Notes under the pieces: model-generated
Databases searched by the model: none
What the model saw: only the letters and a program-made list of their open reading frames with translations
Told to the model about the DNA's origin: nothing
Shown: positions 5,187 to 43,800 of the stretch, piece by piece
Position numbering within the stretch: position 1 is the first letter of the stretch
Layout: each line of letters starts with the position of its first letter
Assembly (NCBI GenBank): GCA_002900995.3
Contig: CM035305.1
Span: 5,364,908-5,428,907 of the forward strand
DNA: 64,000 nucleotides
DNA from: Ganoderma boninense
Lineage: Eukaryota > Basidiomycota > Agaricomycetes > Polyporales > Polyporaceae
Reading direction: 5' to 3'
Translations under genes and position numbers: made by a program

Positions 5187-5286
5187 NNNNNNNNNNNNNN
5201 NNNNNNNNNNNNNNNNNNNNNNNNNNNNNNNNNNNNNNNNNNNNNNNNNNNNNNNNNNNNNNNNNNNNNNNNNNNNNNNNNNNNNN
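5187..5286. other. Assembly gap of 100 N
   Basis: Exactly 100 N bases, the usual placeholder for a scaffold gap of unknown true size. Sequence on the two sides need not be adjacent in the genome. Confidence 0.95.
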
Positions 5287-7473: not shown

Positions 7474-9752
7474 ATGACCGTAAGTTCAAGCTTTATCCTG
7501 GTGCTTTCTGAGGTGTACAGGCCCCTGACGTAGGAGCATAGACTCGCACCCAAGAATCAAGCCGTGGCCACTGGGAACCCGTCAGTAGCAGTGGCCTGCG
7601 AGAATTCCAGGACACCTACTGGGGTGCCCGAGGCAGAACGGCCCTCAAGAACGTGCTCACGCGCCCGCCGCTCGAGTGGTTTCTCCACTTCAGGCAACCC
7701 GCCGTCCAGGACCTCTTCGATTTGTCCCTCCCTGACGGTCTCCACTTCGTCCGCGAGGAATATCTTCTGCTCGCTGACCGCCTCCGTAACTCTCGCAAAC
7801 AGAAAAGGCGGTGTCCGAGATGCACGGATGCTTGTTGCTGGGTCAGCAGGGCGTCGGTATGTGGCTCCTACTCCCGATCCTTCTGCAGGGAAATATCTGA
7901 CGTTAACAGGGAAATCGCACTTTTTGCCACTCTTGCTGGTGCAATGCCTGTCTCGCGAAGAGACGATCCTCTTCACGTCCTCCCACGGAGACACCTATCT
8001 CTTCGATGAAGACGGTATTGTCAGGACGAGGACGGCTGACTTCTCCCCGTCCACTCACCTCCTCGAGGACTTTCCTGAGCCCCCCGGAAGGCTGTGGTCA
8101 CTGGTGGACTGCTCTCAGGCGAAGGGGACTATATTCTCGTCTGTCACCTATGCCGCACGGCAGCTGTTCTTCGTGGCCGCTGCACGTCCCGACCTGTCGC
8201 ATTGCGGAGATCTGAAGGGGCGATTTAATGTTCGGGAGTGGTGGATGTCTGAATGGACGGAGAATGAGCTCCGTGCGCTGTAAGGTCAAGTTGTCTAGTC
8301 CTGTGCTGTGTGATGGCTAACATAGTCCACTTCGGCACTCCCTAGCTTGGCGTCCATACCTCACAACCAGATCCCCCCTCTCAGCCAGGACGGTACCCTC
8401 TGTCGTCTCCCGATACCGCCAGATCTCTCATTCAAGACGTTGGGCCGTCCCCTCAGGATATCCTCCTGTACCTAACCGCCCCAGACCGGTACGAAGAATT
8501 GGTGAATGACGCACTTCTCCATTACACGAGTGTGGACGCGATCTACCGCCTCCTGTCAGGACTCGACCTAAGAATCAACCCAGACGTACACAAACTCGTC
8601 CTCATCTCGCGGGAGGGACCCGTCCCCGTTGCTCCAACTGCGCTCGACGCCGACGATCGTGCCATCGCACACTTCAAGACCCGCGCCATCCACTTCCGCG
8701 TGCTTGCCAGCGTCATGGCGCTCAGCGTCGAGGACACTGAGCACCTCTACGCCGCCTTCAGAGCCAGCGACGGTCCCAGGCATGGCGGCGTGGGACCGTT
8801 CGCTGCCGCGTCCTCCGCGCTCCTCTTCGAGAACATGGCCCTCCGGTACGCGCGCGACGAGGACAAGTTACAGAAACCCCTCTTCGCGCCGTTCCGCGAC
8901 CCCTACATACTCATACACCAGCACAAGGATCCTGCTCCGGATCCCCATCGCAGGGTGCACATGACACGGGCGCAGACGTCCGCCTCGTCGTCCGCCACGG
9001 TGCGCTTCCTCTACCAGAGCAAAAACGAAACCAGCTGGCGCACGACGGTAGCGGTCTCCTCCCGGGCCGAGTCCCGCAACGTTGTGTGGCGCCCTTCGCG
9101 CGGCGCCGAGCGGGACGGATGCGGGAGGTGGCTGTCGGACGTCTACCAGTGCACCAAGCTGCAGGACAATTTGCCCGATGCGATGCACACATGGCCGAGT
9201 GTTGCGGCACTCTGCGCGGCCGTGCGCTCTGGTCCGTGGGACTGGGACGTGGGTGGGGCGTTCTGCCGCGCGCCCGACTCGGCCCCGGGGCATGGTGCGC
9301 TGTTCGACGCGTACGCGCTCCATGTAGACCGCAGCGAGGACTCTATATGGGCGATCCGTGTCGCCACCCCCGAGCAGGAATGCGAGTGTGGCGCGACGGC
9401 CGGTGGGGAAGGAGGGTTCGCGGCGATCGCGCAGCTGAAGGAGGCTCTGCGTGAGGGGTTTCACAATGAGGAGCGACCGGTGCACGTTTGGTACGCGCTG
9501 ATCGTCCCGTACGGGGAGCCAGAGTTCGGAGTGGAGTGGAGCTTGCCTGCGGCGGGATTCGACGAGCATCCCGGGGGCGTGTATGTCCAGTTCCTGGACG
9601 TCAGTGCGTTCGGAGGGGACGTCGCGGATGTGTTTGGGGTGCCGCGGCCGGACGTCGACGAGGACGCCGACGGTGCACCCGACGCAGGTACGGCTCGGAG
9701 GGTAATGTCAAAAACGGCAGGAAAGCGCAAGCGGGATGAAGGAAGGTACTAG
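7474..9752 (+). CDS. Crinkler/RHS-like P-loop NTPase
   Basis: Proposed exons: 7474-7479, 7542-7785, 7803-7856, 7910-8279 and 8423-9752 (667 residues). The N-terminal part reads EFQDTYWGARGR, then VREEYLLLADRL, then a Walker A motif GQQGVGKS that is intact only after removal of the 53-nt intron 7857-7909. A short acidic segment (GDTYLFDED) and WWMSEWTENEL follow, then GPSPQDILLYL and a long variable C-terminal region ending in a basic KRKRDE tail. This order fits the high-copy fungal proteins called Crinkler- or RHS-like, whose NTPase part precedes a variable effector part; that assignment is from family knowledge, not a search. The frame between VREEY and the Walker A motif is restored only if 17 bases (7786-7802, GTAACT...ACAG) are removed, so there is either a micro-intron or a frameshift. 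The two-codon first exon is the least certain part. Confidence 0.7.
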
Positions 9753-10511
9753 GAGCAGTCTCTTCTGAACCGGGCAGTCTTGATACGAGAACAAACACGG
9801 GCGGATGTGGACACTGCAGGCACTCATTCCTCTCGAAGCCCATCCGTATGTTCCCTAGCCACTGAAGTTCGGACCTGTACCAACAGATTCCAGGTCAGCT
9901 ACCATCCATGCTTTGACAGCTCCTTCACTTGCAGGAGACCGGCAACTTCAGCGTAGTATCGCTCATGCGAATCCAAGGTGTTCCGAGTTCAATTTTGTTT
10001 AGTCTTCTACTGTGACCGCATGCCGGTGCATGGCGAACTTGGAAACCATAGGCCCGAAATGTTCTCTCAACTGACATTGACCTCCCCTCTGATTCCCTCA
10101 AAAGTTCGATCTTTGCGAGACACTGTGATCATGACCTCCGGAGGAGAGGATGGAGCTGTTGACGGCCGTTCGGTCAAGGTGTCGAGGGCCGACGCCGGGT
10201 CTCCGTCTGTCGCTTCTCCGTGATATAGATGTGCGTATGTAGCCTCAGTCTGTTGGAGAGGTAGAAGAGCGAGAGTCGGATGGGGAGAACTGACGAGCTG
10301 TTGGGGGATGGATGCCGTCATGTGCTATGTTTGCATCGGATTGCACATTTCGCTCGTGTCGCCACTCAAGCTCCATGACGGATGGCCAGGAATCTACATG
10401 TGCTTATTCTCAGTGACACGGAGTGATTACAAAATCAGAACTCGGGAAGGGCAACACGGCATGACTCGAGCAGCCCACGAGGTACAACTACAGACAAGAC
10501 TACGGAGAACA
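9753..10511. other. Intergenic region, no gene seen
   Basis: Between the convergent 3' ends of the Crinkler-like gene and the next minus-strand gene. Only short random frames; probably 3' UTRs and spacer. Confidence 0.5.
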
Positions 10512-11188
10512 TCAACGCCGGGGCTCCGAGAGCGTGACGAAAACAGGGCTTGGGGACCGGAATTCAGTCCTCTTCTCGACCGCGAATTGGATATGGCTGA
10601 TCAGAGTGTTTAACAGGATCTCGTCCCTCAAGGTGGGCGTCGAGAGCCTGAAGGTGTGGCGTTCGAGGTGTCTGATCACGTAGAGCATCCAGTCCTTGCA
10701 GCTCCGTCTCCCGGAGGCGTCGGAAGGAGGAAGCTGGCAGCTGTGAATGAACTAATACACGTCGACGACAAAGATAAATGCCACTCATTCAGCGACGCGG
10801 GATCATCATGACGATTGGAGTGGAAAGCACGCACACCCTCGAACGTGCGCAGGTGAGCGCTGAACACCGTGCCGATGCGGACGCCTCCCTCATAGCCCGA
10901 TGCACCATTCAAGTCCTCGTCCTGTGCACGCACAGTCTGTCCAGGAGAGAATTGGACGTGGTGGTCGGAAAGGTGGTATACGCGGGCTCGGCGGGTTTGT
11001 TCGTCAGTGATGACCGCGATGGCCCAGTGGCGGGAGGCCGGCCCCAACGGTCTTGAAAGGACGACGATCGACGCGTAGCCGTTTACTGGGTGTTCGTCTC
11101 GAGCGAATGTAGTGCGGGGCATGACGGCATGAGCGTCGCTGGCCGCGGTGGCGGATGCTTGTAGTCCAGCCTGCGACGGTTGCTCCAT
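10512..11188 (-). CDS. Copy A of an undescribed two-exon family, possibly permuted NlpC/P60-like
   Basis: Exons complement(10512-10751, 10835-11188), 197 residues. Exon 1 carries HWAIAVITDE, then RVYHLSD, then GGVRIGTV; exon 2 carries CQLPP, SCKDWMLYVIRHLE and a closing PVFVTLSEP. The same order and the same phase-0 intron occur in the copies at 13923-14593 and 15695-16395, and exon 2 is 240 bases here and in the first of those, which supports the model. No described family was recognised by name. The order His (HWAI), His (YHL), then Cys (SCKDW) resembles permuted NlpC/P60 or LRAT-type enzymes, in which His precedes a Cys in an N-C-x-x-F/W context; this is inference. Copy A keeps all three candidate residues. 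ATG 11188 was chosen because MEQ aligns with copy D. The donor (GGT then GTGCGT) and the acceptor TTAG are acceptable but not strong. Confidence 0.65.
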
Positions 11189-11231
11189 GACCTTCGGTAT
11201 ACTGATCGCCATTCGGAGGAGTCTCTGTACG

Positions 11232-11297
11232 GTGATGAGGCTGAGGGTTGACAGTGATGCGGCTGAGGGTTGACAGTGATGAGGCTGAGGGTTCAGG
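11232..11297 (+). repeat. 22-bp tandem repeat, three units
   Basis: GTGATGAGGCTGAGGGTTGACA is repeated three times with one-base changes (starts 11232, 11254, 11276). It lies in the 5' leader of copy A, between its TATA box and its ATG. Confidence 0.85.
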
Positions 11298-11346
11298 ATT
11301 GAGTCGACGAGGAGTTGGTTAGGTCTCTCCTCGCATTTTTTACGGG

Positions 11347-11352
11347 TTTATA
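11347..11352 (-). promoter_or_regulatory. TATA box of copy A
   Basis: On the minus strand the context is GCAGGATATAAACCC, about 160 bases before ATG 11188. Near-identical GGATATAA contexts lie upstream of the copies at 14593 and 15695, and a close TATATAAA at the pseudogene copy, which argues for function. Confidence 0.65.
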
Positions 11353-11410
11353 TCCTGCGCATAACCGCCCGTCAGCTTGATGAAGTTCAGTAAAAATTTC
11401 TCAGCCTCCC

Positions 11411-11765
11411 TGTGCGGTCGTTATTGTCGTGCTTTGGTGGCAGAGGTGCCATGATTTTATCGTGCCGCCAGTTTGCCGCCAGTCTTTGCGCCATAACGCT
11501 TCCTCGTATATGTGGGACGGAGGACAACCTGTAAGGCTAGATGCAATGGGTGAGGACAAAAATGATCTGAGCTCACCCGCCGCCAGAACTACTATGCAGT
11601 CTGCTATTGTCGTGCTGCAGTGATGAAGGTGCCAGAATCCTAGTACGGCGCCGCCAGTGTGCCACCAGTGTCCAGACTCTTGGACCAAGGAGGCGATGAT
11701 GCTTCCTTCCATTCGTGGAACAAGAACACGTACTTGAAAGGCAAGGTGGGAGACGACACTGCGAC
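11411..11765 (-). repeat. Two tandem copies of the family's conserved upstream element
   Basis: Two related blocks (about 11411-11510 and 11598-11765) read on the minus strand as ACTGGYGGC...GGCACCT...AAGCACGACAATA. The same element occurs once upstream of copy C (about 14776-14960) and once upstream of copy D (about 15385-15530), always on the promoter-distal side of the TATA box and oriented with the gene. It is therefore a promoter-linked repeat that was duplicated with the family. Confidence 0.65.
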
Positions 11766-11766
11766 T

Positions 11767-13922
11767 CACCGCGAGGCGTGGACATGGCTCTGCCTAGTAG
11801 CAATTCACGACGCTAGGGGAGAACAATAAGCAGGAATCAAGATCGCCAGCGCAAACGTGTTTTTGTGGGGATTTCTGAGCGCTGTTCACCTCAGCATTCA
11901 TGGGAAGATATCTGAAAAGGGTGAGAGGGCACCGTCTGGGGGGGCCGCGCCTCGAGGTAAGCAGTGCTAGCAACCTCCATAGGAGTAAGTTCGTACAGGT
12001 GGCACTGTCACTTGGATTAGTCGGCGTCGCATTTTTGTCGGGCATCGGCGGCGTTTCACCAAGAGTGGACAGCCACTCCGAGCCGGGCCCACCATCTGAA
12101 GACCTCGCCACTGGTCGTCTGTTCCGTTCTGTGGTCTTAATCTGTGCTTGTCTCCACACTCAAGTTGGGCCACCTCGACCTGTGTTTGCGAGTTAGATCT
12201 TCAGTGACTCAGAGAACAGCGCTTTCGAACGCCCGATTGGCCACCGCCTTTCGCGCCGTCTGAGGGCCTGCAGACCGCTGTCGGAGTCGGCTGGTAAGCG
12301 TGAGTGCGTACATGACAAGACCACGGCCTACCTACCGAGCAAGCCATTCCGAGTCAAGCACGCTGCTACCGCGACGCGATGAGCGGCAAGGATGTGGCAT
12401 TGGAAGAGCATTCGCGCTCGAGTCTCGGACGTTGATGCGAACTCGGACACAACAGACATGATCTCCACTGCGGGTGGACTCGGAGGCGGCTCGAAGGTGG
12501 CGGTGGTCCGCGCCCCAACGCCAGCTCGATCCGAGTCTGTCCACTGGCAGAGATGGAAGGGCCCGACCATTCGTAATAATGAGAATCTGTAGCACTGGCA
12601 CGGACCCAGCATCGCCCGGCGATCGCTGGCGTGCGAGAAGTAGGAACGATTGCGTCGCTGGGACTCATCTGGAGACAGGCGACCCGGAAGGCAGCCAGGG
12701 GGCGCCGGGAACGGCGAAGCTTATATCTTTGCGACGTCGACAGTCTGAACCCGGGCGGGCTTGAGTACTCAGCGGTCGGCGCTGTCAGCAGGCGGCTGCA
12801 TCCGCATCGCCCAGGGTTCCTGACGCCTGCGCGGTGGCGACTTCGTGGCGGGACGGATTATTGGTGGGGTCGACAAGCCGTCACGCCGCTCCCGGGTCAC
12901 TGCGCCGAGTCTGGGGTCCGGTCCGAGTCTGGAATGGGGATGCTAATCAGTGTTCATGCGGATAGGAATAGGCGACCCAACAGGAAACTTCGCTTTTGAG
13001 GCGCGAGGAGACTCGAACGCCGATATGGCGCCGTCATCCTGAGTGGCGACTGATGCGTTGTGGGGGGTGGCAGTATTCATGAAGGTAGCCGAAAGAGGAG
13101 AAGATAGTCGCCGGAAATGAGCATTTGTAGGATTGGCCGAGGTATGGGCGAGGAGAGAGGAGGCGATAAGTACGGCATCATCGGTGACAGAGGCGAACGG
13201 TGCCGCTGGTAGTGACCATGTGGGAGTGAGAGACTACCGGCAGAAGTTGGGAGTCGACCTAACTGGAGGAGAAGACCTTCGCCAGTGATGAACAGGACGT
13301 GGCCGCCATAGAGCATCGCGGTCATTCATAGCCTTCCACGGGCCTGCAGGCTGCACCGTCGAGGCCAGCAGCGAACCTCCCTAGTTCCGGACTCCGATCC
13401 AGATTTGACGGCTGCTGACTGGAAAGGACTGCTGTAAGAGGTAAAAGTAAACCGGCACAATGAAGCGAAGTGAGTTTATCCCCGTTGTCCTGCACGTACT
13501 GTGAGGGTCATCGTGGAACAGAGGCAAAGACGTCGAAGAGTACAAAATTGTGAAAATTGCACGCTGTCTGGGACGTCTCGGTCGGAGACTTCCGGTGAGC
13601 AAGCGCTCGTTTGCCGAAACTGCGAAACAACTTGAAGCACTCGATCGAATACATGCAGACATGGATTTACGTTCAGACCAAACCCCTCCGAGTCCATGTA
13701 AGACACGCGGACGGTCCTGGCATGAGACGCGACTCAGGTTGCGGGACATGTTGTCACGAAGGCGCGGGAGGAAGCAGTACTAGTGCATGAGGTAATGTGC
13801 GTACTACAGTACTAGTGTCGATCCGCAGGCCACAGAACCAGGAAGAATAACATGGTACGACAGTACGCTCAGTTCAAACGATGTGAACGAAAACGAAAGA
13901 AAGGATAACAATAGCATTAACC
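11767..13922. other. Long region without a supportable gene
   Basis: Several open frames of 80-120 codons exist on both strands but none carries recognisable motifs or joins into exons. Part of 12830-12970 resembles 25930-26160 (shared CTTCGTGGCGGG and CCCGGGTCACTG words), so dispersed repeat remnants are present. Confidence 0.45.
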
Positions 13923-14593
13923 TCAAGGCACAGAACAAGTCAGCGAGAGCGGCACGAACGCCGGAGAACCGTTGTGCAGTTCAGTTGACCTCTTTGCTTT
14001 CCAGCCATCCCAGGTCAGCCGAAGGAGCAGGTAGCCATCATCCATGCCGGACGTGGAGAGCGGGAATCCTTGTGCTTCTATGTCTTTGATTACTGCCGTC
14101 GTCCACTTCTTGCAATCCATTATGGAGGATTTGGGAGGAGGGAGCTGGTTGCCGCAGATGGCCTGCCCGGTCATTCATGTTGACGACGTCAAACGGTCCT
14201 TGAGCGACGCGCGATGACTGAGCGGAGGGGAGGAGAACATACCTTTTCGAGCCTCGTCAGGTCGTCTCTGTGCACTTCTCCAATACGGACGCCCCCAAGG
14301 CAGCTTGACGAGCTGTCGAGCACCTCGTCTTCGGCGAACACCTCCCACTTGATAGCATCAATGTCGCGGATGTGCAAGTCGCATAAGTGGAAGACGCGAC
14401 ACAGGCACGAAGGCTCGTCGATGATGACGGCGATGGCCCAATGAGGAGTTGCATGCGACCTGGGGGAGCACGAGACGACCAGGATGGAAAGGCTCGATTG
14501 CGCTGGCAGATGTCGAGCCTTTTGAGTGGCGTGTCGCGTCGGATGGGTCGTGCCGAGCAGTCTTCGTACTAGACCCCGCAACGATTGTACCAT
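13923..14593 (-). CDS. Copy C of the two-exon family, putative active-site residues kept
   Basis: Exons complement(13923-14162, 14243-14593), 196 residues, with an 80-nt intron (GTATGT...GGCAG). Exon 1 carries HWAIAVIIDE, RVFHLCD and GGVRIGEV; exon 2 carries ICGNQLPPP, DCKKWTTAVI, EAQGF and AFVPLSL. The candidate triad His, His, Cys is complete, as in copy A. The start at 14593 matches the MEQSL start of copy D, and an in-frame GTG six bases earlier is also shared. The gene is divergent from copy D, with about 1.1 kb between the two ATGs. Function is unknown; a permuted NlpC/P60-like thiol hydrolase or acyltransferase is only a hypothesis. Confidence 0.7.
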
Positions 14594-15694
14594 GTTCACC
14601 AGTTATACGCTGTACCGTTCGGAAGGCTGCTTGCGACTGTCGCGAGGTCGATCGAGGGTCGAGGGAAAGGTGGATGGGCTGCTTCACGCATCGTTGCCAA
14701 TTTATATCCTGCACACACAGAAACATAAATTCCCGTCAGACTAGGCTAATGTAGTCAATTCTCAACATGCCTATGCGCTGGTCGTCATTGTCGTGCTTCG
14801 ATTATGGCGGTGCGATGATGGCGGTGCGAGGTCTGCAACTGGAAGGTGCCGCACGTTTGCCCCCAGTATCCAGACTCCTAGAGGCTATGACTCGGCGGTT
14901 GCTTCCCCACAATTATGGAATCCGAACACGGACTGGAAAGGCAAGGCGCGATAAGTGAAGACAGAAACGATCTAAACTCACCGCCAGTATCAGCTGAGGC
15001 ATGAATGACTTGAACAGTTTACCAGTCAATCGCGGTATGTTTCCTGCGGCTGAACCCGGCGGTCGCTAGTAGCGTTGGTGACCAGAAAAGGTGACCATGT
15101 GGGGACTGCAGGCGCATTTTGCGGTTCGACGAACAGATTTATAGATATCCAGAGAATGCATGTCGGAGGGAACCATTGGGAGCTCGGGCGGGGTTGGCGG
15201 ACAGGTCGACGTTGTCCAGCCGCGTCAGCATTTCAACGCGAGAATACAAGGAGTGCACCTGACTGTCCATAACCTGCAAGCCGTTGCTGGACACTGGGCG
15301 GCACCGTATGGTACTTACTACGATTCGTATCGGTATTGTTCAACCACGACAGTAAGCTGGAATATGACATGTCCCCTCATTTCGCACCTTGCCTTTCCTG
15401 GCCGTTTTCGGGTCCAAGTATGTTCATCAAAAGCATCACCGCCCCCAGGAGTCCGGACACTGGCGGCAAGCTGCTGGCACCTTCGGAATCCTGCCGCCGT
15501 CATTACCAAAGCACGACAATAGCCACTGGATAGGCATGTTGAGAGAGCTCAACTACAGTTGCCTAAACTGGCAGAGCTTCATGGGCAGGATATAAGCTCG
15601 CACCGATACGGAGGAGCAGCCCACCCATCTTTCCCCCGACCCTCAACCTCACCACAGTTGCAAGCAGCCTTTCAAGCGAAGACTACCGGTGAGT
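14594..15694. promoter_or_regulatory. Divergent promoter region between copies C and D
   Basis: Each half carries the same layout: a TATA box (minus strand 14701-14706 for copy C; plus strand 15591-15596 for copy D, context GGATATAAG), then a leader with GAAGCAGCCCA or GGAGCAGCCCA and a C-rich CCCTCGACCC or CCCCCGACCC stretch, and farther out the upstream element ending in AAGCACGACAAT (about 14776-14960 and 15385-15530). The rest of the region, about 14961-15384, shows no gene. Confidence 0.6.
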
Positions 15695-16395
15695 ATGGAG
15701 CAATCTTTGCAGGACCAACTTCGAAGACTGCTCCGTGCGACCCATCCACCGCGCGGCACCACTCCGGGCGTTCAAGACGACTCGGAATCCAACCCGACCC
15801 TTCCCATCGTGGTCGTTTCGAGGCCGCCGGGGTCGCGCGCAGCCGATTCCTGGGCAATCGCGGTCGTCATGAACAAGCGTTCGCACCAATGCCGCGTCTT
15901 CCACGTGTCTCAAGCCTACGACCGTCACGGCATGAGGGCTCCCGGATGGACGGTCTTTGCCGAGAACGAAGTGCTCGACAGACGGTCGGACTACGCGGGG
16001 GGCGTCTGTATCGGACGGGTGGACAGGGCCGATCTTGCGAGGCTTGAAGAGGTACGTTTTCCCTTCCGCTCTGCTCCATCGACCCGTGTCGCTCACTGCT
16101 CGTTTGTCGTCGTCGTCGTCGAACATGGACGACCGTGCACGTACAGGCCCTCTGTGGCAGCCGGTTCCCTCCTCCGATGTGGGAAAGATGGAGTGCCGAG
16201 ACCTGGACGGTGGCAGCGATCAGACACCTCGAAGCGCAAGGGTTCACGATCGTCACGTACGGCTTGGACAACGATCACCTGTCCGTCCGACTGACGATAG
16301 ACGCCTACTGTGCACGGAGGCTCACCGAGGAGCAGAACAGCGCGCCGATCTTCGTGCCGCTCTCGCTGTCCGGTGCTGAGCGGCGGCCCCGTTGA
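15695..16395 (+). CDS. Copy D of the two-exon family, putative active site lost
   Basis: Exons 15695-16051 and 16147-16395, 201 residues, joined by a 95-nt intron (GTACGT...GTACAG). Exon 1 has SWAIAVVMNK, RVFHVSQ, WTVFAENEVLD and GGVCIGRV; exon 2 has LCGSRFPPP, AETWTVAAI, HLEAQGF and IFVPLSL. Splice phase and layout match copies A and C. The reading frame is intact, yet the first candidate His is Ser and the candidate Cys before the Trp is replaced (AETW against SCKDW and DCKKW), so if the family is an enzyme this copy is probably inactive. It may still be expressed, since its TATA region is conserved. Confidence 0.7.
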
Positions 16396-16889
16396 TGTTG
16401 TCCATTCTCCCATTCCGAAGGCCTACGCACTGACTGTGTCGTCGTGCTATTATGTATTCCCTGGTCCTGCGTGCCGAGTCCCGAGCCCTGTAAGCACATC
16501 GCGTATGAGTATGTACGCATGCTCTGTGCGTGGGATTGGGCCGACTAGTTACACTGTGACAGCACGAGCAGAATGTTTGAATTTGTTAGTTTGTCAGTGA
16601 TACGAAACATAGCGAGTGCGTTGTGTCGCAGGCGAGGGCCCGCACGGTGTTCATGACTGCGCAGGTTGGGAACGCTCCAGAAATCCTCGGTTCCAGTTCG
16701 AGTCCTCGTGGGCGCTCGGTAATTGGCAATCCTGAGTATTCCGCCCGTTTTCTGCCGGTACTTACTTAGAAGCGCCAATATTTGCGGTGTTTCAATCCTA
16801 CTAACGCTGGTACACAAGTTGAAACTTGAGCCGCGTGAGCCCACGGTCCGAGTCCTCACCCAAGTTCATTCTGCCCGGCCACACCCACC
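16396..16889. other. Intergenic, no gene seen
   Basis: 3' flank of copy D and upstream region of the kinase gene. A tRNA-like GTTCGAGTCC word near 16700 was tested and rejected. Confidence 0.5.
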
Positions 16890-18495
16890 ATGCTCAATGT
16901 ACGCAACTTGGGCCGCCGACTTGCAGGCCTCGTCGCGAGCAGACCTAGACCACCTTCGCCTCCTCGTCCACCCTCGACAGCTAGCTTCGAGACGCTCGAC
17001 CCCTCGCAACGTGTCGAAGAAGAGACTCTGTCGTGGTATAATCCGCAGGCCTTCTACCCCGTGCGAATAGGAGAAGTCTTCCACTCGCGGTACCAGGTCG
17101 TCGGTAAGCTTGGCCATGGTGCGTATTCCACTGCCTGGCTCTGCCGAGACCTTGTGTAAGTGTTCCCTCCGTGTAACCTTGGGATTCTGCTTCTCCGTCG
17201 CTGACAGCACATCGACAGAGGACATCGCTACGTGACCATCAAGGTCTGCACCCGGAATGCTTTCCCAGTCAAGCGCGAGCTTGCTGCCCTCCAACACCTG
17301 CACAGCCTCCCCAAGACACGCCACGCCGGGCGGATGTTCGTCCGCAGCCTCCTAGACCAGTTTGTGCTCACTTCAGAGCAGGCGGGGTCGATTGACTCTC
17401 AATCTACTGGCGTGGGCCCCTTGCCACCGCAGTCCTTCCAGTGCCTTGTGCACAAGCCGCTGCTGGTGTCCCTTTTCGCGTTTCGCGACGGAAGGAAGCT
17501 TCTAAAACATTTCACCAAGCTCGTCGTGCAGCACGTGCTCCTCGCGCTCGACTATTTGCACTCAGAGGCCAAGGTCATCCATACCGGTTCGTCTCTTAGT
17601 CCGTGTCTACGCTTCAAATCAGCTCCGTCATGTTCACGCCTCCTCCGTGTCTATCTGTGTTCTTTAGACATCCAAGAGAAGAACATCCTCCTCGACCTGG
17701 ACGACATCCCCGCCCTCGAAGCATTCGAGGAGGCCGAACGCACGAACCCCGTCGCGCGCAAGGACGCCGGCGACCGCACCATCTATCTGTCTCGAGAGAT
17801 CAACACTGCGCCCAAGAACTACGGCCGACCGGTGCTGTGCGATTTTGGCGAGGCGCGATTCGGGCGCACGACGTACACCGATCCCATCCAGCCGTTCCCC
17901 TACCGCGCCCCAGAGGTCATCCTGGGCGTGCCGTGGGACGAGAAGGTGGACATCTGGACCGTCGGCGTGATGGTGAGTGCGAGCCTCCGAGTCTAACTTT
18001 TCTACCCCGGGCCGTCCCTCCTGCCCCGTCCCCGTCGTTGTGTGCTCCCTGACAACTGTTTTTGTGGCAGATTTGGGACATGTTCGAGGGCAAGAACATG
18101 TTCAACGTGACGGGTGGACCAGAGGGGCAAGTAGGTGACTTGTACCACCTGGCGCACATGGTCGCCTTGCTCGGGCCCCCGCCCGTCGAGCTTCTGCAGC
18201 GCAGTACGATCGATGTTGGACAGTACTTTGATGCACAAGGCAAGGATTTCATCCGTTGTAGTCTCCGTTCTATTCGTCAGAGGCTCATTTTTATTGACGT
18301 GCATTAGGCAATTGGGTCGGGGCGACCGACCTGCCCAACGATAGTCTCGAACAGTCAGAGTCAAGGTTGGAGGGGGATGATAAGGCTCAGTGTCTGGCAT
18401 TTGTGCGGAAGATGGTGAGATGGAAGCCTGAGGAGCGTTGTTCTGCCTATGAGCTGCTGGATGATCCGTGGCTCAACAACGTAGAGATCCCGTAA
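16890..18495 (+). CDS. SRPK-like serine/threonine protein kinase
   Basis: Exons 16890-17155, 17219-17586, 17668-17972, 18071-18239 and 18308-18495 (431 residues). The kinase fold is complete: glycine loop LGHGAYSTAW, beta-3 lysine in VTIKV, catalytic loop VIHTDIQEKNIL with the Asp codon split by the intron 17587-17667, DFG in LCDFGEARFG, APE in YRAPEVILG, and DIWTVGVMIWDMFEGKNMF. The last phrase, and the RMVRW-like segment KMVRWKPEERCSAYELLDDPWL, are typical of the SRPK-related kinases that are abundant in Agaricomycetes and are thought to act on SR-type proteins; the substrate here is unknown. The last intron is best read as GC-AG (GCAAGG...ATTAG, 18240-18307), giving DAQGNWVGA, because the GT alternative at 18256 adds five residues that break the pattern. 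An N-terminal start at 16890 is supported by an open frame and the absence of a better ATG. Confidence 0.85.
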
Positions 18496-19402
18496 TACGA
18501 AAAGGGTATCCTGTGCCAGTGCGTGTCACATGTCCGACGACGCGTTCTCCTTGTCCTGTATGCCACATTTTGGCACCAAGTCCATGTTCAACGTAGTATT
18601 CTCCCGACCAATCCTCACTGCTCATTTTTATTCCAGCCGCCATTGTACCCTGCGCTGACAGCTGTAGTATCACACGACTGAAGCCCTCTGCCACGTTACG
18701 GAAATCGTCCCGCCATCTGGAGATGGTTCTCCTGTTGAGCTGTGTAAGTGGAGCCCTTGCGTCCCGTCTCAATGAGTACATGATATTTGTTGACATTCTT
18801 GGACATATTTCAGGACGTACGCTAGCGTGTATTCCCTTGAAGAAGCTTATAGCGCGCGCACAGTTTCAATGCCGCTTCTGGCATCCGCTTCGCCAAGTCT
18901 AGTAATCCCCGAAGAACCCGGTGCACCCCTCGAGCCACCTGCACCATCCGAAGTTTTGGGGCGTTGAGAGAAACGGCATAGGAAGATGCGGGTGCAGAGG
19001 GCTCGTAGCTTCCAAGCCGCCGCAGTGACATTTGTTGCCGTTATGCTTGTGTTGGGACGCCCACCTTCGTCTCTGCGGGCTTGCCAGGACTTGTTCCGTA
19101 TGAACACGGGTCGAGGATGAGCGACAGTTGACGGTGCGTCGCTTGCAGTGCCTTCGGATCGACTCGATGGCAGAGTGGCGAGCAAGCTCTGTCGGACCAT
19201 GGCGGCGATTTCAGGACGCATTATTCTTCGCCGACATCCCCGACCACTGGCTTCCTTTCGACGAAGTGACCCTCGCAATATTGTCGCGCATCATTTCATG
19301 GAACGTAGATGGTGAGTCTTGCTTGCAGACACGTAGTTCTCCCTGTTGTTGTTGGCAGATCTGCTCTCGTCACAGGGTATCAACAAATCACGCGCATTCG
19401 AG
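18496..19402 (+). repeat. Left unit of a segmental duplication (5' flank of the HsbA gene)
   Basis: From about 18870 on, this flank is repeated at 22180-22740, with shared stretches such as TTCGCCGACATCCCCG, TTTCGACGAA and GCACGCTCTGTCGG or GCAAGCTCTGTCGG. On the plus strand both copies contain FFADIP followed by LPFDE and a TGAGTC donor-like end, so an exon of an unrecognised gene may once have existed here; no complete gene can be drawn. 18496-18870 shows nothing. Confidence 0.5.
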
Positions 19403-19408
19403 TATAAA
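19403..19408 (+). promoter_or_regulatory. TATA box of the HsbA gene
   Basis: TATAAA in the context GAGTATAAAACCCACC, about 100 bases before ATG 19506. The relic copy has GCATAAACCCCACC at the matching place, so its box has decayed. Confidence 0.65.
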
Positions 19409-19505
19409 ACCCACCTTGTACTGTCACTCATTCTCTATCCCCATCCCCCACCCCATACAAACTCAGCAGCCTCGACATCTTCTCCACGCCTCTCGCACCG
19501 TAACA

Positions 19506-20463
19506 ATGAAGTTCTTCAGTACCTTCCTCGCGGCCGTCTTCGTCGTTCAGACCATCGTCGTCGGCACCGTGGCGCAGACCTCGGACGAAGTGATCAGCGC
19601 GATCCAGTCGTTCATCACCGCCTCCAGCAACCTCAACGCCGAGGTCACGCCTCTCAACGCCGTTACCTTCCCCTCTATGGGCTTTGCAAGTTTTCCTCTT
19701 CTTCGTTTGGGCGCAGTTCTCACTCTTACTCCGGTCTTAGGTGATTGCTGAGGGGTTCAACAACATCACGTCGGCGGTCAACACGTTCAACGCCGAGTTC
19801 TCTGTGAGATTCCCGAGTCAAATGCGATCCCGGGCCCACTGTCCTGTTATGCGTGAGGGTCAGACTTCGCTCACCAAATATTCCGATAGCCTGCCACCCC
19901 GGCGTACTCCGACGATGCCGCAGTTGCGGTGGTCGACGTCTTGACGACCTTCGTTTTGGTGCACCAGTAAGTCTGTTCTCCCCGTCATGCTGTAATTTGT
20001 ATCAAACTTACCAATTTCGTCGCGTCTGCAAAAGGGATCTTCTCAACGTCGTCATTGGAAAGCACGTGCGTACCATCTCGTGCGGATGCTCAACTCGTCC
20101 TCATAAATTCTCTCCGCCTCTGGGACAGTCCCTCGCGGCGATGTTCTTCCTCACCGCTCCGATTGCCGCCGCCCTGCGCTCCTTGGAAGCCGTCGTCGAC
20201 GTAAGTGCCACAACTCTCAATCTGACGGAACAATGAGTGCAACTAACATATAAAACCTACAACCCGCTCCTTACCCCGTCTAGACCTTCGCCTTCGCCCT
20301 CATCAACCTGATTCCGACTCAGTCGGGCCCGGCTACAGCGCAGATCGTCCGTGCCACTTTTTCTTCTCCATCTCTGGCAGACCGAGGTGGATGATGCTGA
20401 CGCATGCTACAGAACGCGCTCTCCGTGACGTTCACGAACGCCACCACGACCTACAGTTCCTAA
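19506..20463 (+). CDS. Secreted hydrophobic surface-binding protein A (HsbA) family protein
   Basis: Seven exons: 19506-19685, 19741-19803, 19890-19966, 20035-20065, 20129-20200, 20284-20346, 20413-20463 (178 residues). A clear signal peptide (MKFFSTFLAAVFVVQTIVVG, cut near AQ) is followed by an all-helical, Ala/Ile/Thr-rich chain with DEVISAIQSF, LNAVTFPSM, NTFNAEF, VVIGKHS and ALINLIPTQSG, the pattern of the HsbA / cell-wall galactomannoprotein family. In Aspergillus, HsbA adsorbs to hydrophobic surfaces and helps recruit a cutinase; the same role here is inferred. The first intron is best read as GC-AG (GCAAGT...CTTAG, 19686-19740) because no GT donor fits the frame. Introns are 54-86 nt and exons as short as 31 nt. 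A deleted duplicate lies at 22120-23190. Confidence 0.85.
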
Positions 20464-20957
20464 GCACCCCCATATAATGTGCGCATAGCCCGTACGGCAT
20501 CCGCCGCGTCCTCGGCGCGACGTTGTCGTCGTCCCGTGGTTAGGCCCCTGGCGTTGGTTCGGTTGGACTGGCTCCGGTGTCGGTGTCTTGTCTATTTCTG
20601 TTCGGCTTGTTCTTTCTTGGGATCTCGTGTTTGTGCTATAGAGGGCTCTCTCTTGTACGTTGATTGCCTGAGCGAGTGTCGGGGTCTTGAATAGAATCAC
20701 TCTGTCGTCCTCACCTCGCGCTGGAGACTTATCAGCTGAGAACGTATTGCTCGTCCTTCAGGACGGGCAAGGATATCATCAAATGCTCAGTAAACAATAT
20801 TATACCATTTACCTCGTAAAAACGAAAAGAGGAGAGGTCACTAACACGTCTCCAACCAGATACAAGGAGGCTGAAATCTCCTCCCGCACCGCTGGTCGCT
20901 GAGCTTTGCTGAAGCAGGAGATACGACACATTCACTACGCAGGCTCAGGACCAGTCA
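20464..20957. other. 3' flank of HsbA and spacer, no gene seen
   Basis: 20464-20660 is probably the HsbA 3' UTR, because it is partly repeated after the relic copy (CCGTGGTTAG, CTCCGGYGTCGGT). The rest shows no coding signal. Confidence 0.5.
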
Positions 20958-21517
20958 CTAAACGAAAGAATGAATAGCATCAACGGAGAGCGGCAGGAAA
21001 GCCGGAGGGTGGTTGTGTGATTCTGCGGTCCGCGTCTGTGCTCGCCAGCCAGCCGTGGTCAGTCGGTCGTCCATGCCAGCCGTGACGAGCGGGAACCCTT
21101 GCGCTTCGAGGTGTCTGATTACTGCCATTATCCAGTCCTCGAAGACTCATGTGATGGATGCGGGAGGAGGGAGCTGGTCGCTACAGATGGCCTAGCACGT
21201 CGTCCACGCGCAGTGAGAAACGTGAGTTGGCTGAGCGCACCTGTTCGAACCTTTTCAGGTAGTTCCTGAGCACCTGTCCAATACAGACGCGACCCCGGTC
21301 GTGCGATGATCTGTCGAGCACTTTGTCCTCGGCGAACGACGTCCATCGGGGAACAGGCACGCCATGGGTGGGCCAGCGGTGCCGGCGGCGGATGCGCGAA
21401 AGACGCGGCACCGGCGCGAAGTCTCGTCGGTGACGACCGCGATTTCCCGGCGATAGGGCGCGTAGGTCGGGGTGAGGGGGATGATGGGTGGGCTGCTTCG
21501 CACGTTTCAGGTTTATA
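20958..21517 (-). pseudogene. Copy E of the two-exon family, disrupted
   Basis: Read on the minus strand it begins with TATATAAACC (21512-21517) and the family leader GAAGCAGCCCACCC, but the N-terminal coding part is missing and the leader runs straight into YRREIAVVTDE. RVFRASA follows, then a frame change before WTSFAEDKVLD, then an intron-like segment and ICSDQLPPP. A TGA stop interrupts exon 2 before VFEDWIMAVIRHLEAQGF. Loss of the 5' coding part, one frameshift and one in-frame stop make this a pseudogene. All three candidate catalytic residues are also changed. Confidence 0.75.
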
Positions 21518-22119
21518 TACTGCCAGTGCACGTAGGACGCACAGTGGAGTCCAGTCAGTGACTCTATCCAAATCGAATGCCAGTGAGCTCCCTGATCCTG
21601 TTGGAAATGTTGCCTACGAGCTGCTAGGATATCCATGGGGGGATTATCCAGGATATATCCATCTGATGATTCGCCAGGATACTGGTAGGGACTACAAGGG
21701 AGTTCGCAAACTGCAGACACTGACGGTGCAGGGCTTCAAGTTAGCTGACCAATCAAAGCATGGGTAATCGGAGTTTGAATGGCATTCTTGACAGCGCTCG
21801 GCCACAGACGCGGCAACAAAGCTGGAGTTCGATACCTCTCCTCCCTGCCCTCACCACCTTCTACGATCTTGACCATTGTCGTGACGTGGTGACTTGAAGC
21901 ACTACAGCTTATCTCATGTTTCGTATCTCCTCCTGGCTATCTCAGGCTGCCACTGGCTAGACCGTGCTCATAGTGAGGGGCCGTGCAACGCCTTGCTCGA
22001 GCCCTTGAGTCCTTGGTTTTCCACCCATACAGGTTCGTTATCCATTTCTGCAGATACGGATTTGACGTTTACTGACGTGATCCGAAGAACACCGGGACGC
22101 ATGCTGTGGCCTGCCGTAT
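21518..22119. other. Spacer, no gene seen
   Basis: Upstream side of pseudogene copy E. A short ATTGTCGTG word near 21873 matches the end of the family's upstream element but the rest of the element is not recognisable. Confidence 0.45.
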
Positions 22120-23190
22120 CCTCCCTCGACGAAGAAGCTTCTCCTGCACGCACCACTGGCAAGGCAGATGCTGGCATGCGCTGGCGGCCCAAGTACAGGC
22201 GTCCCCGAAGAGCCCGTCACAACCCTGGATCCACCTGCAACGTTCGAAGCTTTGAGGTATTGAGAGAAACGGCATGGAAGGTGCGCAGTGCCATTCAGGA
22301 CGTTGCTCGCTTCCAGGCCACGGTAGCATGTGTTGCCGTCACGCTGCCAGCAGTGGCCCCAGGACGCCCATCTTCGTGACGTCTCCAAGCTTGGAACTTG
22401 TGATGTATGACCATCGAGGGAGAACGGGACATTGACGGTACGTCGCTCGCGATGTCCTCAGATCGGCGCCTTGATAACTGGGTGGTGAGCACGCTCTGTC
22501 GGTTCCGCATATAGGCGATAGAGGCGACTTCAGACAGCATTATTTTTCGCCGACATCCCCGCCGACTACAAGCTTCCCTTCGACGAAATGAACCTCGCAA
22601 CATTGTTGTCGCACATCATTTCCAGGAACGAACGTAGACAGTGAGTCATGTTCCCGGACATGTCATTTCTCTGGCGAGGTCCCTTGGCCATCTTTGCCTG
22701 TAGGTCTGTTCTCGACACCGGGTATGAGTAAACCAGCGCATGTAGCATAAACCCCACCTGCCAGTGTGCCGACACTCATCGAGTCGGCATCCTCATTCCC
22801 CATCCCATGCGACTCAGCAGCCGCCGCCAATTTGATTCCGACGGTGTCGGGCGCCGCTTCCGCCCAGATCGGCATGCGTACTTCCAACTGTTCTCTGCTG
22901 TCTTGAGATGGCTCGCGCTAACGCGCGCTGCTGCAGGACGCGCTAGGCTCCGTGGCTTTCACGAACGCCGCCAGGGCCTAGTACGATACCCGCGGCCGCA
23001 TATAGTGTGCTCATGACCCGTCCGCATGCTCTGTGCGCCGGAGTTCCGTGGTTAGACGTTCGACTCTTGCCACGGTTTGTATGACTCCGCACGGTTCCAC
23101 GCTCTGAGCGTGGAGGCTCCGGCGTCGGTTTCTTGTCTGCCTCTGTTTCATATCGGGATCTGGTGTGTCTGCGTGTGTCAGTGTCTGGCT
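22120..23190 (+). pseudogene. Relic of a duplicated HsbA gene with internal deletion
   Basis: The 5' flank (22180-22740), a decayed TATA region and a leader ending CTCAGCAG match the intact HsbA locus. The leader then joins directly to sequence matching exon 6 (NLIP...SG, near 22830) and, after an intron remnant ending CTGCAG, to exon 7 (ALGSVAFTNA, near 22940). Exons 1-5, including the signal peptide, are gone. The 3' flank to about 23190 again matches the intact locus. This is therefore a segmental duplicate that lost about 0.8 kb. Confidence 0.75.
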
Positions 23191-25805: not shown

Positions 25806-27116
25806 TGGGGCAGGCGGTCCGGGGACGGCGGAACTTGAACTTGAACTTGGACGGCTTTGACAGCATGTGCAGTAAACAGGCGTCGGCCGCATGTCCGAGG
25901 GACCTGCGCGGCCTTTCGAGTCGCTGGGAGTGACAGCGGCTTCGTGGCGGGGTCGACACGGTGCGTAGGAGAGAAGAGGGGAGGGAGGTCGAATGCGGGG
26001 CCCCAGGGACGCGGCGGGCGGGCAGATGTGCCCGACACGCCGTCCCCGGGTCACTGTGATGAGTCGGGAGGTCGAGTCGGGTGGAAGAGGAACACAGGCA
26101 TGCAAGATAGAGGGGGGCTGGAGATGGAGATGCTACTGAAGAGTCTTCATGCAAATAGGCGAGACGGCCTGAGGAATTCTGGATGAGGCGCTAGGAGACG
26201 ATACCGTGCCGAAGGAACTGCTGCTAGTAGAGAAGGATGCTGCTGATGGAGACGATACTGGTGGAGGCTGGGAGTAGTCGCGAGAGTAGCTGCAAGAGGA
26301 GAAGATCGTTGTTGGGGATGAGGAGGATGGGCCGTCGAGGGAGGTCTTTTATACCCGCGAGGCCGGTGGCTAACCACCCGTCCTCTCGTCCAGGTTTGGC
26401 GGGAGACCTGCCGTAGAATGTGGGCTGGCTTCGGCTGACCACAGAAGACCCGATCGAAGACGTCGACCTCGAGTTGCCGGTCAGTCCTTCACGGAGGCTG
26501 GGTTGCCGGCGTCGTGAAAGACGGGCGCCTGATGATCGTAAGGCTCGTCCGTCGCGTTTGCCTCCCCGAAACCCGAGGAACCGACGCAGGACCCGATCGT
26601 CCTCATACATGTGATTATGTAGTGCGTACTAGCCAATCATCTGGCTCGCGAGGGGAGCAGGTTCCAAGTTCTGTCCTGGCTGCCTCCCGAGTTGGAGAGT
26701 TGGACAGTGTGCTGAGGCTAACAGATTGAGTACTTACGCCCGCGTGGCTCGCTGCCGAATCTTCGATCTACCCTGCGATCTACCCTGCTATTGCGGTGAG
26801 TATATGCGTGGATGCAGGCTGGGACGTACCGTCGCGACTGTATTGTGTGCTTGCGTGGATGAATCAGGCCGTAGAGTCGTGCGTTTTACGGTCCACCACG
26901 CAACGAGACCGTACGCTCGCCCTGGCCCTGGGGGGGGGGAAAGACATGAAGGGGCCGACACTGGGCAGAATCCTTGAAGTCATAGTCGAAAGGCGCAGTC
27001 GCCGTCATCCGCATGCTGAGTTCAAAAGCGCGTTCTCAGAGCGCGTTGGTCGTATGCAACTATGTAGCGAGGACGCAGACGAACAAAGACAACAGAAAGG
27101 GGGCGTGGGAACCGAG
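25806..27116. other. No supportable gene
   Basis: 25930-26160 shares words with 12830-12970. 26890-26940 ends in a G-run. No coherent exon chain was found. Confidence 0.45.
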
Positions 27117-27124
27117 TATATGAA
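27117..27124 (+). promoter_or_regulatory. TATA-like box before the truncated kinase gene
   Basis: TATATGAA about 95 bases before ATG 27212, at the spacing seen for the other TATA boxes in this window. Confidence 0.4.
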
Positions 27125-27211
27125 GGCGCGTCCTGCCAGTCTCTCAAGCGCTCAAGCTCTTGACCACCACCGCAGTGCCCATCCCGCCACTCACGTTACC
27201 TTCTGCTTACC

Positions 27212-27749
27212 ATGTCCACCGCCGTACAGATGGACGTCGATTCGACTTCCTCCGCTCATCCCCCCGAACACTCGCGATCCGAACCCGACGTGGCGAACAG
27301 CAGCTCCGCGACTCCATCACGCACGACAAGTTCCTCGACTACAGAACGCGAACGGCCCGCCAGTGGCGCAAGCCGCCTCGAGAAGGTCTCTGCGAGGGAT
27401 CTCGGCGACTTCAAGAACGGCCTCGAGCTCGTATGGATCATGTGTGGCGCCATCCACGGTGAGTATCCTCGTCTCCTGGCGTTCGGATGAAGACGCTTCC
27501 GTTCTGACCGGCCGCCGCCACCACCCAGCACACAAGAAACTGCATGAATGTGCGGGGATCCTGCACGGAGACATTAACCCGAACACGATCGTCGCGCTGG
27601 ATACCGAGGACGGGAAGGTCGAGGGCGCGCTGATCGACTACGACATGCCGATGTGCAGGGCGGCGATGCGCAAGCTCGCCAAGCCGGATCCTGTGGTTCC
27701 CCCGCCTGCGCCTCCTAGGCAATTCTACATACCCGCTTACTACCACTAG
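27212..27749 (+). CDS. Truncated FunK1-like protein kinase fragment
   Basis: Exons 27212-27458 and 27529-27749, 155 residues, joined by a 70-nt intron (GTGAGT...CCCAG). The first exon codes a Ser/Thr-rich leader and LVWIMCGAIHG; the second codes HKKLHECAGILHGDINPNTIV and GALIDYDMPM. The HGDIN and IDYD segments match the catalytic and metal-binding loops of the fungal FunK1 family (the canonical motifs are HRD and DFG). The glycine loop, the beta-3 lysine and everything after the metal-binding loop are missing, and the protein ends in a Pro-rich tail. It cannot be an active kinase by itself. The open frame and intact splice sites suggest it may still be expressed as a decoy or be a recent truncation. 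Confidence 0.65.
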
Positions 27750-40854: not shown

Positions 40855-43800
40855 CTAACTACCATTTTTCGGGAGAGAAATAGTGGATGCGATAGTGGGT
40901 GTCATGGGCGCAGCTCGGGCTTGCGCAGTGCGGCGCTTTACTTGGGCCTCGAGCTTGCTGCGCTGCTTGCGGACGTCATCGTCCTTGAACTTCATCGAAA
41001 ACGCAAGCTCGATGAAAGCGTCGGGATTGGGCGGAGGCAAGTCGGCGGGGGGTGGGCTAAAGCTTGTAGCACAGCTTCGGGCGACGGAGACTGTAGAATA
41101 ACACGTCGAGTACACGCGAATAGCGCCAAGCCAGCTCGGAACAGGAACGTTACACCTTAGACGGCCGAGGGAACATGTGAGCGGGTATCTGACAGCCTGA
41201 TTAAAAGGAGACGGACCTTCAAACAAGAATACATCCCAAAGACGGACAAGGTAGTCCGGGGGCAGGGCGTCTGCAAATACAGTAGTAAACCTGTCGAAAG
41301 CACGGTCATCAGATGCACGAAGCACACGAGGAGACGAAGCTCACCATGCGCGACAGACAACTACAGGCGATATTGCCATGCTACCGAAAAGCTTCTTCGC
41401 CGATGCAGCGTCGTTCGACTCCAGCACCTTGGCAAACAGCGTTGCGTCGACTTCGAGTTGAACGCTGCTTTTCGAGAAGTAAGGGCGCAAGTGGCTGTCC
41501 ATCAGAGAGATGAACGTCCAAAACGCGTCTTCCTCCGGCGACTGAAGCAGGAGCTGGGCGGCGATCAGACTGAGACCTATATGGAACAAACAATGGACGT
41601 CAGCGGCGTCATCTAGAGACCCTACTTCGCGAAGTAGACCAGCCATAGGTCACGAGTCCACGAACCTCTCGTATACTGAATGTCTGGTACCATACACAGA
41701 TACGCCTGCAACAGCTTCGCGAGCGATCCGTCCTGGAGCTGTGGATGCGCAGCGAACGACATCTGTACATCGCGCTCGATCTGCGCATATGCCGCGACCT
41801 TCTCGCGCTGTGCCAGGCGCTGATACAGGCCCTCCATCCGCTTGCCCTTGCTGTCCGTGAGCGCGGCCCACACCTGGTAGCGCACCGACGCCGGTACGCC
41901 GTCGAGCACCATCTTGCGGATCTTCTTGCTCTTCCGCGCCTGCGACGGCGATATCGTCGACAACGTCGAGATCCAGCGGAGTTCGCGCTGGCGGTGCGCT
42001 TCGACCTGGGATGCATCGCTTTCCTTGACCGGCCTCGTGTCGCTAGGCGACGCGCTCCCCGGCTGCGCGAAAGCTTGGCCCGCACCCAGGCTGTGGCCAG
42101 AGAGCTCCGACAGCGCTGGGCTGTCCGTCCGCAGGAAACCAGGGCGTGTACTGACCGGACTTGGGCTTGGAAGCGACTCGAAGCTCCCCCCTAACGGCGA
42201 CATCGGGAGTGAGGGTTTGATGAGCTCGAAGTCGGTATCTTGGACCTGCACCGTATCCTGTTCGGTAATGTACTCGCTTGTTGTGCTCACACTAACGGTG
42301 GGGCTCTTGATCGACTGATGAGATCCTTGATCGCTGGGCACGAGGCGGAGCGGGGTCATCTGTGGTCTGCCGCCGCCGCCAGCGCCGTTGCTACGCTTGT
42401 TAACATGTAGCCCAATCACACCTCCATCCGACGCTTCCTCCATCCGTGATACGCCAGACGGCGACGAGGCTTCCGACCGAACAGTGTCCACGGACAGCCG
42501 CGGGTTAGACAGCCCTTGCGAAGCAATCCTAGTGCGCGGCGGGGATGACATATGATTAGAGAAAGACGTTCTCGTGCTAGTAGGCAACATCGCAGAACGA
42601 CTGTGGCGAAGCACCCTCGGGGATCCGGGCGGCGGGAAGTTGATCACGGACCGCGGTGACGAGGGCGGGCTGGTGCTGAGGATAACGGCCTCGGGCAATG
42701 TCGCCAACGGCGACTGGAGCTGCGGCTCAGGTGACCCTTGCCCAATGCCGTTCATCGCGAGACGCGGCGATGCGGTGCCGTTGGATTCGAGCGAAGGCCG
42801 CTCGTCTAGAGAAATCGACCTAGAAATCTGTTGCTGTGCTGGAGTGACAAGGTCCGCTGGAGGAGACGATGCTGGGAGCGGATTCGTAGACGCACGCAGG
42901 GGAGGAGAACGTACGGGCGGAGCGACGACGGCGGACCGGCCCCCGGGGACTGTATTGGTCTGCGACTGCGACAGCGGCGAAGGCGCGTGGAGGCCCCGCA
43001 AGACCGTCGGCGAGTGCGAGACCGTCGCGCGCTGCGGCGCCGGCACGTTTGCAATCGTCGTCGTCGTCGCCATCGCCGACTTCGAGCGTTTGGTTGTGAT
43101 CTGCAGAGGCCGAATTGGCGACAGAGGTGGCGATAGGGGGCTTCCCGAGATAGTGTCAGAATCGTCCCGACTGTAACAAGATTAAGAGTTATAGCGCGGT
43201 CTAGAGAAGCAAAACCAGAAGAAGATACGCACCTTCCCTCGTTCAGCGTCTGCACTTTTATGGACAAGTCCATACCGCTCGTGAGTGCAGAGAAAGACCG
43301 TGACCTCGGGCGTGACTTGTGGACCGTAGGCGTGAAGTTCGTCCGCTGGATCAGCGCTGGCCCTCCTCCCAAACCGGCAGGCCCCAGGGGCGGCCCAGCG
43401 GCACTCAGCATCTGCTCGATATGAGCCGGAGGAGGGATTGGCGGGGACGCCGCGCTCCGTCTACCCGTCGGGTCAGCGCTTCTTCGTCCGGCCAGGTCGA
43501 TCGCAAGCTGAGAAGGTGGCGAAGAGCCCGGAGCGTTCAGCATCTGGGGCGGGGGCAGCGCGGGCGGAGAAGTCGCACTGCGCCGAGTCGGGTCCGCGCT
43601 CCTCCGTCCCGCGAGGTCGATCGCGAGTTGCGACGCAGGCGATCCCGTTCTGCTAGGCGTCCACGGCATCGGGGGACGAGCAGCGCGGTTTGCGGGGATA
43701 TTGTTCTGCGGCTCGTGGCTGAACGTGATCGGAACTGGTCCGAACGACGTCGACAAATCGTATTCGAGTCGCCCATAGACCGTCGGCGGGGCAGGTCGCC

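Follow-up and report, generated by a model that had tools for sequence, protein, structure and literature searches.

Among the families that a 2023 superfamily survey (PMC10318531) groups as papain-like, with a Cys-His-His triad, are LRAT, NLPC_P60, Ac81, and the Pfam family DUF6540 (PF20174), and the survey's account of cluster II of the permuted NlpC/P60 proteins gives a GD motif on strand 1 and an Arg partner on strand 5. Among 5.39 million full-text papers, DUF6540 and PF20174 each appeared only in this survey, and within that library no member seems to have been studied by itself. CLN5, a protein that enters the structural comparison below, has been described as lysosomal and secreted and as a predicted depalmitoylase or glycoside hydrolase (PMC9686302), and elsewhere as a bis(monoacylglycero)phosphate (BMP) synthase (PMC13015511). 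Here, we analyze a small gene family in a 64-kb stretch of DNA (the window; C2:5364908-5428907), together with the 55.6-Mb genome (74 contigs) in which relatives were sought. Contig C2 holds seven copies of the gene, with A to D inside the window and E to G outside it.

We consider it likely that these genes encode small cysteine enzymes of a polypore branch of DUF6540 with a permuted NlpC/P60 fold, that copy C is non-catalytic and copy D dead, and that the array arose by duplication and decay. A reading made earlier from the letters of the window (the sequence-only reading) had proposed three intact genes, each of two exons parted by a phase-0 intron, and one pseudogene, and the sequence bears this out. 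Copy A (11188 to 10512, minus strand) encodes 191 amino acids (aa) and has an intron of 101 bases; an in-frame ATG at 11212 offers an alternative start that would give 199 aa. Copy B (14593 to 13923, minus strand; 196 aa) has an intron of 80 bases, and copy C (15695 to 16395, plus strand; 201 aa) has one of 95 bases. The reading frames of all three are intact after splicing. Three-frame translation of copy D (21517 to 20958, minus strand) shows similarity split between two frames, in-frame stops, and a missing N-terminal part, and genome matches to it in searches with the homologues P0001 and P0006 contain stops. Copies E, F, and G have open frames and lie at positions 5305096, 5307229, and 5309408 of C2, all on the plus strand. 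The family had been placed within a single 11-kb span, which does hold four copies, but these three intact ones are 65 to 70 kb away.

Similarity among the copies is far above chance. The unspliced open reading frame (ORF) of copy A matches five further places in the genome with E values from 6e-51 to 3e-10; P0001 and P0006 produce at least 18 and at least 14 genome matches, respectively, 13 of them in each case within the two copy groups, and the matches outside both groups are weak (E values of 0.002 to 0.05). P0006, an annotated 201-aa protein of Ganoderma boninense (Polyporales, Polyporaceae), shares 194 of its 201 residues (96.5%) with spliced copy C, and the splice model of C is supported because the two proteins have the same length and align without gaps. 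Given this identity, the window probably stems from G. boninense or a near relative. The exon junctions of B and C likewise fit P0001, P0002, and P0007, whose sequences run uninterrupted across them, and spliced B is 53 to 54% identical to P0001 and P0002 across the whole protein. In copies A and G, a splice acceptor preserving phase 0 would sit a few codons further in, removing the CGxQ piece.

The sequence-only reading took the family to be undescribed and without a name; the copies belong, however, to DUF6540, as part of its polypore branch, and the family matched by profile is thus one that the survey classes as papain-like (PMC10318531) rather than an unrelated one. Against the Pfam gathering cut-off of 27 bits, spliced F (47.0 bits), E (32.1 bits), and C (27.3 bits, barely) pass, and B (20.9 bits), A (16.8 bits), and G (16.3 bits) score below it, with DUF6540 still the best family for each; we count the latter three as members because they are clearly similar to C, E, and F. 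Four of the five homologues scanned (P0001 to P0004) pass at 29.8 to 32.5 bits, and the fifth, P0005, an exon-1 read-through, yields no row; a precomputed annotation assigns P0006 and P0007 to PF20174. Spliced models were required, as unspliced ORFs searched against Pfam gave no DUF6540 and one chance row, Herpes_capsid, below its cut-off. The genome has 14 DUF6540 matches in total, seven of them above the cut-off and three of the others being pieces of E and F. Our second homologue search recovered 13 proteins, and a third, extended to an E value of ≤10, added none to them; only about 8,000 candidates were scored in each, and more distant relatives may have been missed.

The copies share with other DUF6540 ORFs of the genome an HW ... 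C-x-x-W layout, to which the branch adds a conserved RVFHxSD, a PVFVPLSL tail, and the splitting phase-0 intron. For several of these proteins, DUF6914 (PF21858) ranks second among the profiles, and six of its seven genome matches fall at DUF6540 loci, although B (13.6 bits) and C (15.9 bits) score far under its cut-off of 27 and A yields no row. Neither LRAT (PF04970) nor PPPDE/Peptidase_C97 (PF05903) gave a row at an E value of ≤10 with any of the spliced proteins (A, B, C, E, F, and G), although HMMER's filtering removes most matches with E values beyond about 0.1. A separate PF05903 gene is present on contig C5, which also carries four DUF6540/DUF6914-type ORFs (L012, L013, L014, and L060) within about 57 kb (C5:134836-191182); by eye, L013 and L014 are close duplicates.

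A core of five motifs had been described as common to all copies, but it is complete only in B. Within the window, HWAIAV, RVxHxxD, and CKxWxxxVI occur in A and B only: the corresponding stretches of C read SWAIAV, RVFHVSQ, and AETWTVAAI, and D lacks the first of these His residues and has RVFRAS and FEDWIMAVI. GGVxIG is found in A, B, and C (GRVCIG in D). The element given as CxxLPP really has three residues between Cys and LPP; it is present in B and D, reads CGSRFPP in C, and is absent from A in the phase-0 model.

In an alignment of 19 sequences, 16 have the first His, the exceptions being C and P0006 (Ser) and L018 (Asp, at a place where the alignment is uncertain because of an adjacent His). 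The second His is likewise kept in 16, with Gln in L008, Asn in L009, and Glu in L011, and the Cys is kept in 17, with Ala instead in C and P0006. All three putative Cys-His-His residues are retained in copies A, B, E, F, and G. The His-Trp and Cys-x-x-Trp positions of DUF6540 are intact in five of the six intact copies, with C deviating at the first His and the Cys, that is, at two of three putative catalytic residues. Copy C is therefore predicted to be a non-catalytic paralogue, and since P0006 shares both losses, the dead state probably predates the split between the two. The new contribution here is modest and consists of a polypore branch that has a putatively catalytically dead member, and of a 96.5% identical G. 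boninense protein that would be dead in the same way. Five copies with an intact putative triad, one putatively dead copy whose frame is open, and one broken copy make the cluster a compact natural series in which any requirement for catalysis could be told apart from changes in other parts of the protein.

One step in the growth of the array was an inverted segmental duplication, in which window positions 13619 to 7562 correspond to C2:5308354-5313065 (84 to 91% identity by blastn, and by alignment) and which carries A and G together with a neighboring ORF of 417 aa. Copies A and G are 83.9 and 84.8% identical in their exons, 83.2% in the intron, 85.9% in the 5′ flank, and 90.7% in the 3′ flank; the alignment past window position 12005 is misaligned (class “other,” 56.5%) and was excluded from the comparison. 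The neighboring ORF and its duplicate align without gaps, are 95.1% identical, and have a ratio of nonsynonymous to synonymous rates (omega, dN/dS) of 0.38. For A and G, dN is 0.190, dS is 0.153, and omega is 1.24, an excess of dN that is not significant (dN > dS in 0.80 of 2,000 bootstraps; 95% range of dN − dS, −0.054 to 0.120). Core codons of this pair have a dN of 0.063 and a dS of 0.124, and codons outside the core have a dN of 0.254 and a dS of 0.167. Coding gaps between the two are whole codons, and when their 92 substitutions are placed randomly, only 7.1% or 5.7% of 3,000 runs, depending on the copy used as the ancestor, leave both copies without a stop. Outside the core, A and G thus change at close to a neutral pace, and their frame has probably been kept.

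The remaining 14 copy pairs have omega values of 0.52 to 0.75 and dS values of 0.58 to 1.06 (NG86), the former indicating constraint. Recent amplification, as the sequence-only reading had it, thus fits the A-G pair (dS, 0.15) but not the others. In the tree, the groupings of all branch members together, of A with G, of C with P0006, and of P0012 with two Dichomitus proteins are well supported, and 13 of 19 inner branches are open; amplification in this lineage is therefore supported for A and G only. A segment of about 1.36 kb beside A (window positions 12006 to 13362) is nearly absent from the segmental partner beside G. Its one other genome match (C2:5352004; 81% over 69 bases) marks it as no high-copy repeat, and it contained no inverted repeats and no convincing terminal direct repeats.

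These rates bear on two other accounts of the array. The first is that of a decaying birth-and-death array, whose frames are open with little selection left and whose enzyme is being lost from the genome. The pseudogene D, the two putative catalytic residues missing from C, the omega of A and G, and the fact that their exons are as diverged as the intron and 5′ flank, whereas the neighboring ORF is far better kept, all fit such decay. We nonetheless hold it to be unlikely, as six of the seven copies have open frames, C and P0006 differ at just 7 of 201 residues, and the omega values of the other 14 pairs, the low dN in the A-G core, the whole-codon gaps, and the rarity of stop-free random runs argue against it. 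The second account, in which the protein surfaces diversify under selection while the catalytic core is preserved, as in systems of recognition or conflict (self versus non-self, or against microbes or viruses), would explain why dN exceeds dS outside the core of A and G and is reversed within it while the co-duplicated ORF is constrained, and it suits genes that are clustered, duplicated, and accompanied by a dead paralogue. It strikes us as quite improbable, however, given that the excess of dN is not significant and matches neutral drift, that omega is below 1 in the remaining pairs, and that no partner genes or functional link were found. An extended form, in which the cluster is polypore-specific and diversifying and its active acyl-transfer enzymes, of the permuted papain-like type, cooperate in recognition or conflict with a dead paralogue that has been retained, all with positively selected surfaces and a preserved core, is highly doubtful.

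The permuted NlpC/P60 (LRAT-like) fold of the preferred reading is supported by membership in DUF6540, by the classification of that family in the survey (PMC10318531), and by a predicted structure, so that a motif-based guess from raw sequence arrived at the published fold assignment. The structure is that of P0002, a homologue from Ganoderma leucocontextum, modeled from an alignment of six full-length rows with a predicted local distance difference test (pLDDT) score of 75.5. In this model, the strands bearing both His residues precede a helix of which Cys131 is the first residue, as in the permuted order. The top three rows of its VIA list are CLN5 and, at ranks 2 and 3, Aichivirus 2A, all with modest scores. 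Among the matches listed for the model (50 Foldseek and 32 VIA rows), there were no LRAT, PLAAT, or bacterial NlpC/P60 chains, which excludes nothing, and a profile search of PDB sequences gave no match. The first five rows from a viral library (E values of ≥0.017) were a granulovirus protein (probability, 0.63), a Tunisvirus protein (0.35), and an unnamed protein (0.77), these three being unrelated or unnamed, followed by a kobuvirus polyprotein fragment (0.95) and a fish picornavirus protein (0.82). A first model, built from nine rows that included exon-1-only proteins, reached a pLDDT of 48.2, and its fold matches were discarded as meaningless.

LRAT and PLAAT, as well as the picornaviral 2A H-NC proteins, share with the modeled branch the order His, His, Cys and a Cys that opens a helix. 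The copies have C-x-x-W where LRAT has an NCEHF-type motif, and by inspection they lack a hydrophobic C-terminal tail. The Cys-His-His triad is reported for both LRAT and DUF6540 (PMC10318531). CLN5 differs in being only 11 to 12% identical and in its length (a chain of 285 residues, versus 193 here). That DUF6540 instead has a different alpha/beta fold, with the His-His-Cys order kept for structure or metal binding, would suit the modest structural scores, the unusable first model, and the variable second His, but it is very unlikely in view of the CLN5 and Aichivirus 2A matches, the Cys at the helix start, and a papain-like classification that was made independently.

With a permuted fold of this kind, the branch proteins are probably papain-like thiol acyl-hydrolases or transferases. 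The beta-sheet would bear two His residues, the base in HWAIAV and another in RVFH, whereas the nucleophilic Cys of DCxxW would come last in order, opening the helix. Its thiolate, activated by the two His residues, could attack an acyl bond (ester, thioester, or amide) to form an acyl-enzyme, from which the acyl group would be released or transferred, as proposed for LRAT-type enzymes and CLN5. The array itself would have expanded and decayed through duplication, the inverted segmental duplication included.

A promoter common to the copies had been proposed as well, and a GCAG[G/T]ATATAA box does lie upstream of all seven. Across the window, the form GCAGGATATAA is found at just three places, one ahead of each of A, B, and C, and the 9 kb that hold E, F, and G (L007) likewise have it three times, once before each; in these six open copies, its ATATAA lies 104 to 165 bases ahead of the ATG. 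The form GCAGTATATAA has a single occurrence in the window, upstream of D, and none in the 9 kb of L007. The six open copies, but not D, also align at a second element, ACGACAAT. The copies have the box in common because it was inherited through duplication.

Table 1. Coordinates of features in the 64-kb window
Feature	Positions	Strand	Basis
Half of inverted segmental duplication; partner C2:5308354-5313065 with copy G	7562..13619	.	blastn, alignment
Neighboring ORF, 417 aa, no Pfam match; co-duplicated with A/G, internal rate control	8499..9752	+	
Copy A exon 2 (SCKDW), stop at 10512	10512..10733	-	Spliced model; frame-keeping acceptor, common to copy G, inferred
Copy A exon 1 (HWAIAV, RVYHLSD, GGVRIG)	10835..11188	-	Spliced model, donor GT, phase 0; E value of 6e-51 to copy G
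TATA-type box GCAGGATATAA of A	11348..11358	-	
Copy B exon 2 (CGNQLPP, DCKKW)	13923..14162	-	Spliced model; identity to P0001 and P0002
Copy B exon 1 (HWAIAV, RVFHLCD, GGVRIG)	14243..14593	-	Spliced model; identity to P0001 and P0002
TATA-type box GCAGGATATAA of B	14702..14712	-	
TATA-type box GCAGGATATAA of C	15585..15595	+	
Copy C exon 1 (SWAIAV, Ser for the first His; RVFH intact)	15695..16051	+	Spliced model; P0006 alignment
Copy C exon 2 (AETW, Ala at the catalytic-position Cys)	16147..16395	+	Spliced model; alignment
Copy D pseudogene, N-terminal part gone, both His and the Cys positions lost	20958..21517	-	Three-frame translation; matches with internal stops
GCAGTATATAA upstream of D	21513..21523	-	

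Although the copies lie 72 to 153 kb from the end of the contig, a subtelomeric location is not supported, as its final 10 kb contain a single TTAGGG and no array. An Rfam search of window positions 9800 to 22400 gave no match. The window contains 200 N, and ORFs near 5200 and 63200 translate into runs of X. Three ORFs farther along, read unspliced, gave weak Pfam rows below the cut-off: Pkinase_fungal at 26796 to 27749 (21.1 bits), RabGAP-TBC at 41622 to 43073 (22.5 bits), and SNF2-rel_dom at 51960 to 52496 (17.6 bits). Beside copy C, at 17232 to 17996, lies a protein kinase ORF (Pkinase, 39.8 bits, above the cut-off), and P0006 is itself called “Protein kinase domain-containing protein,” a label that may have been taken over by mistake from the adjoining gene.

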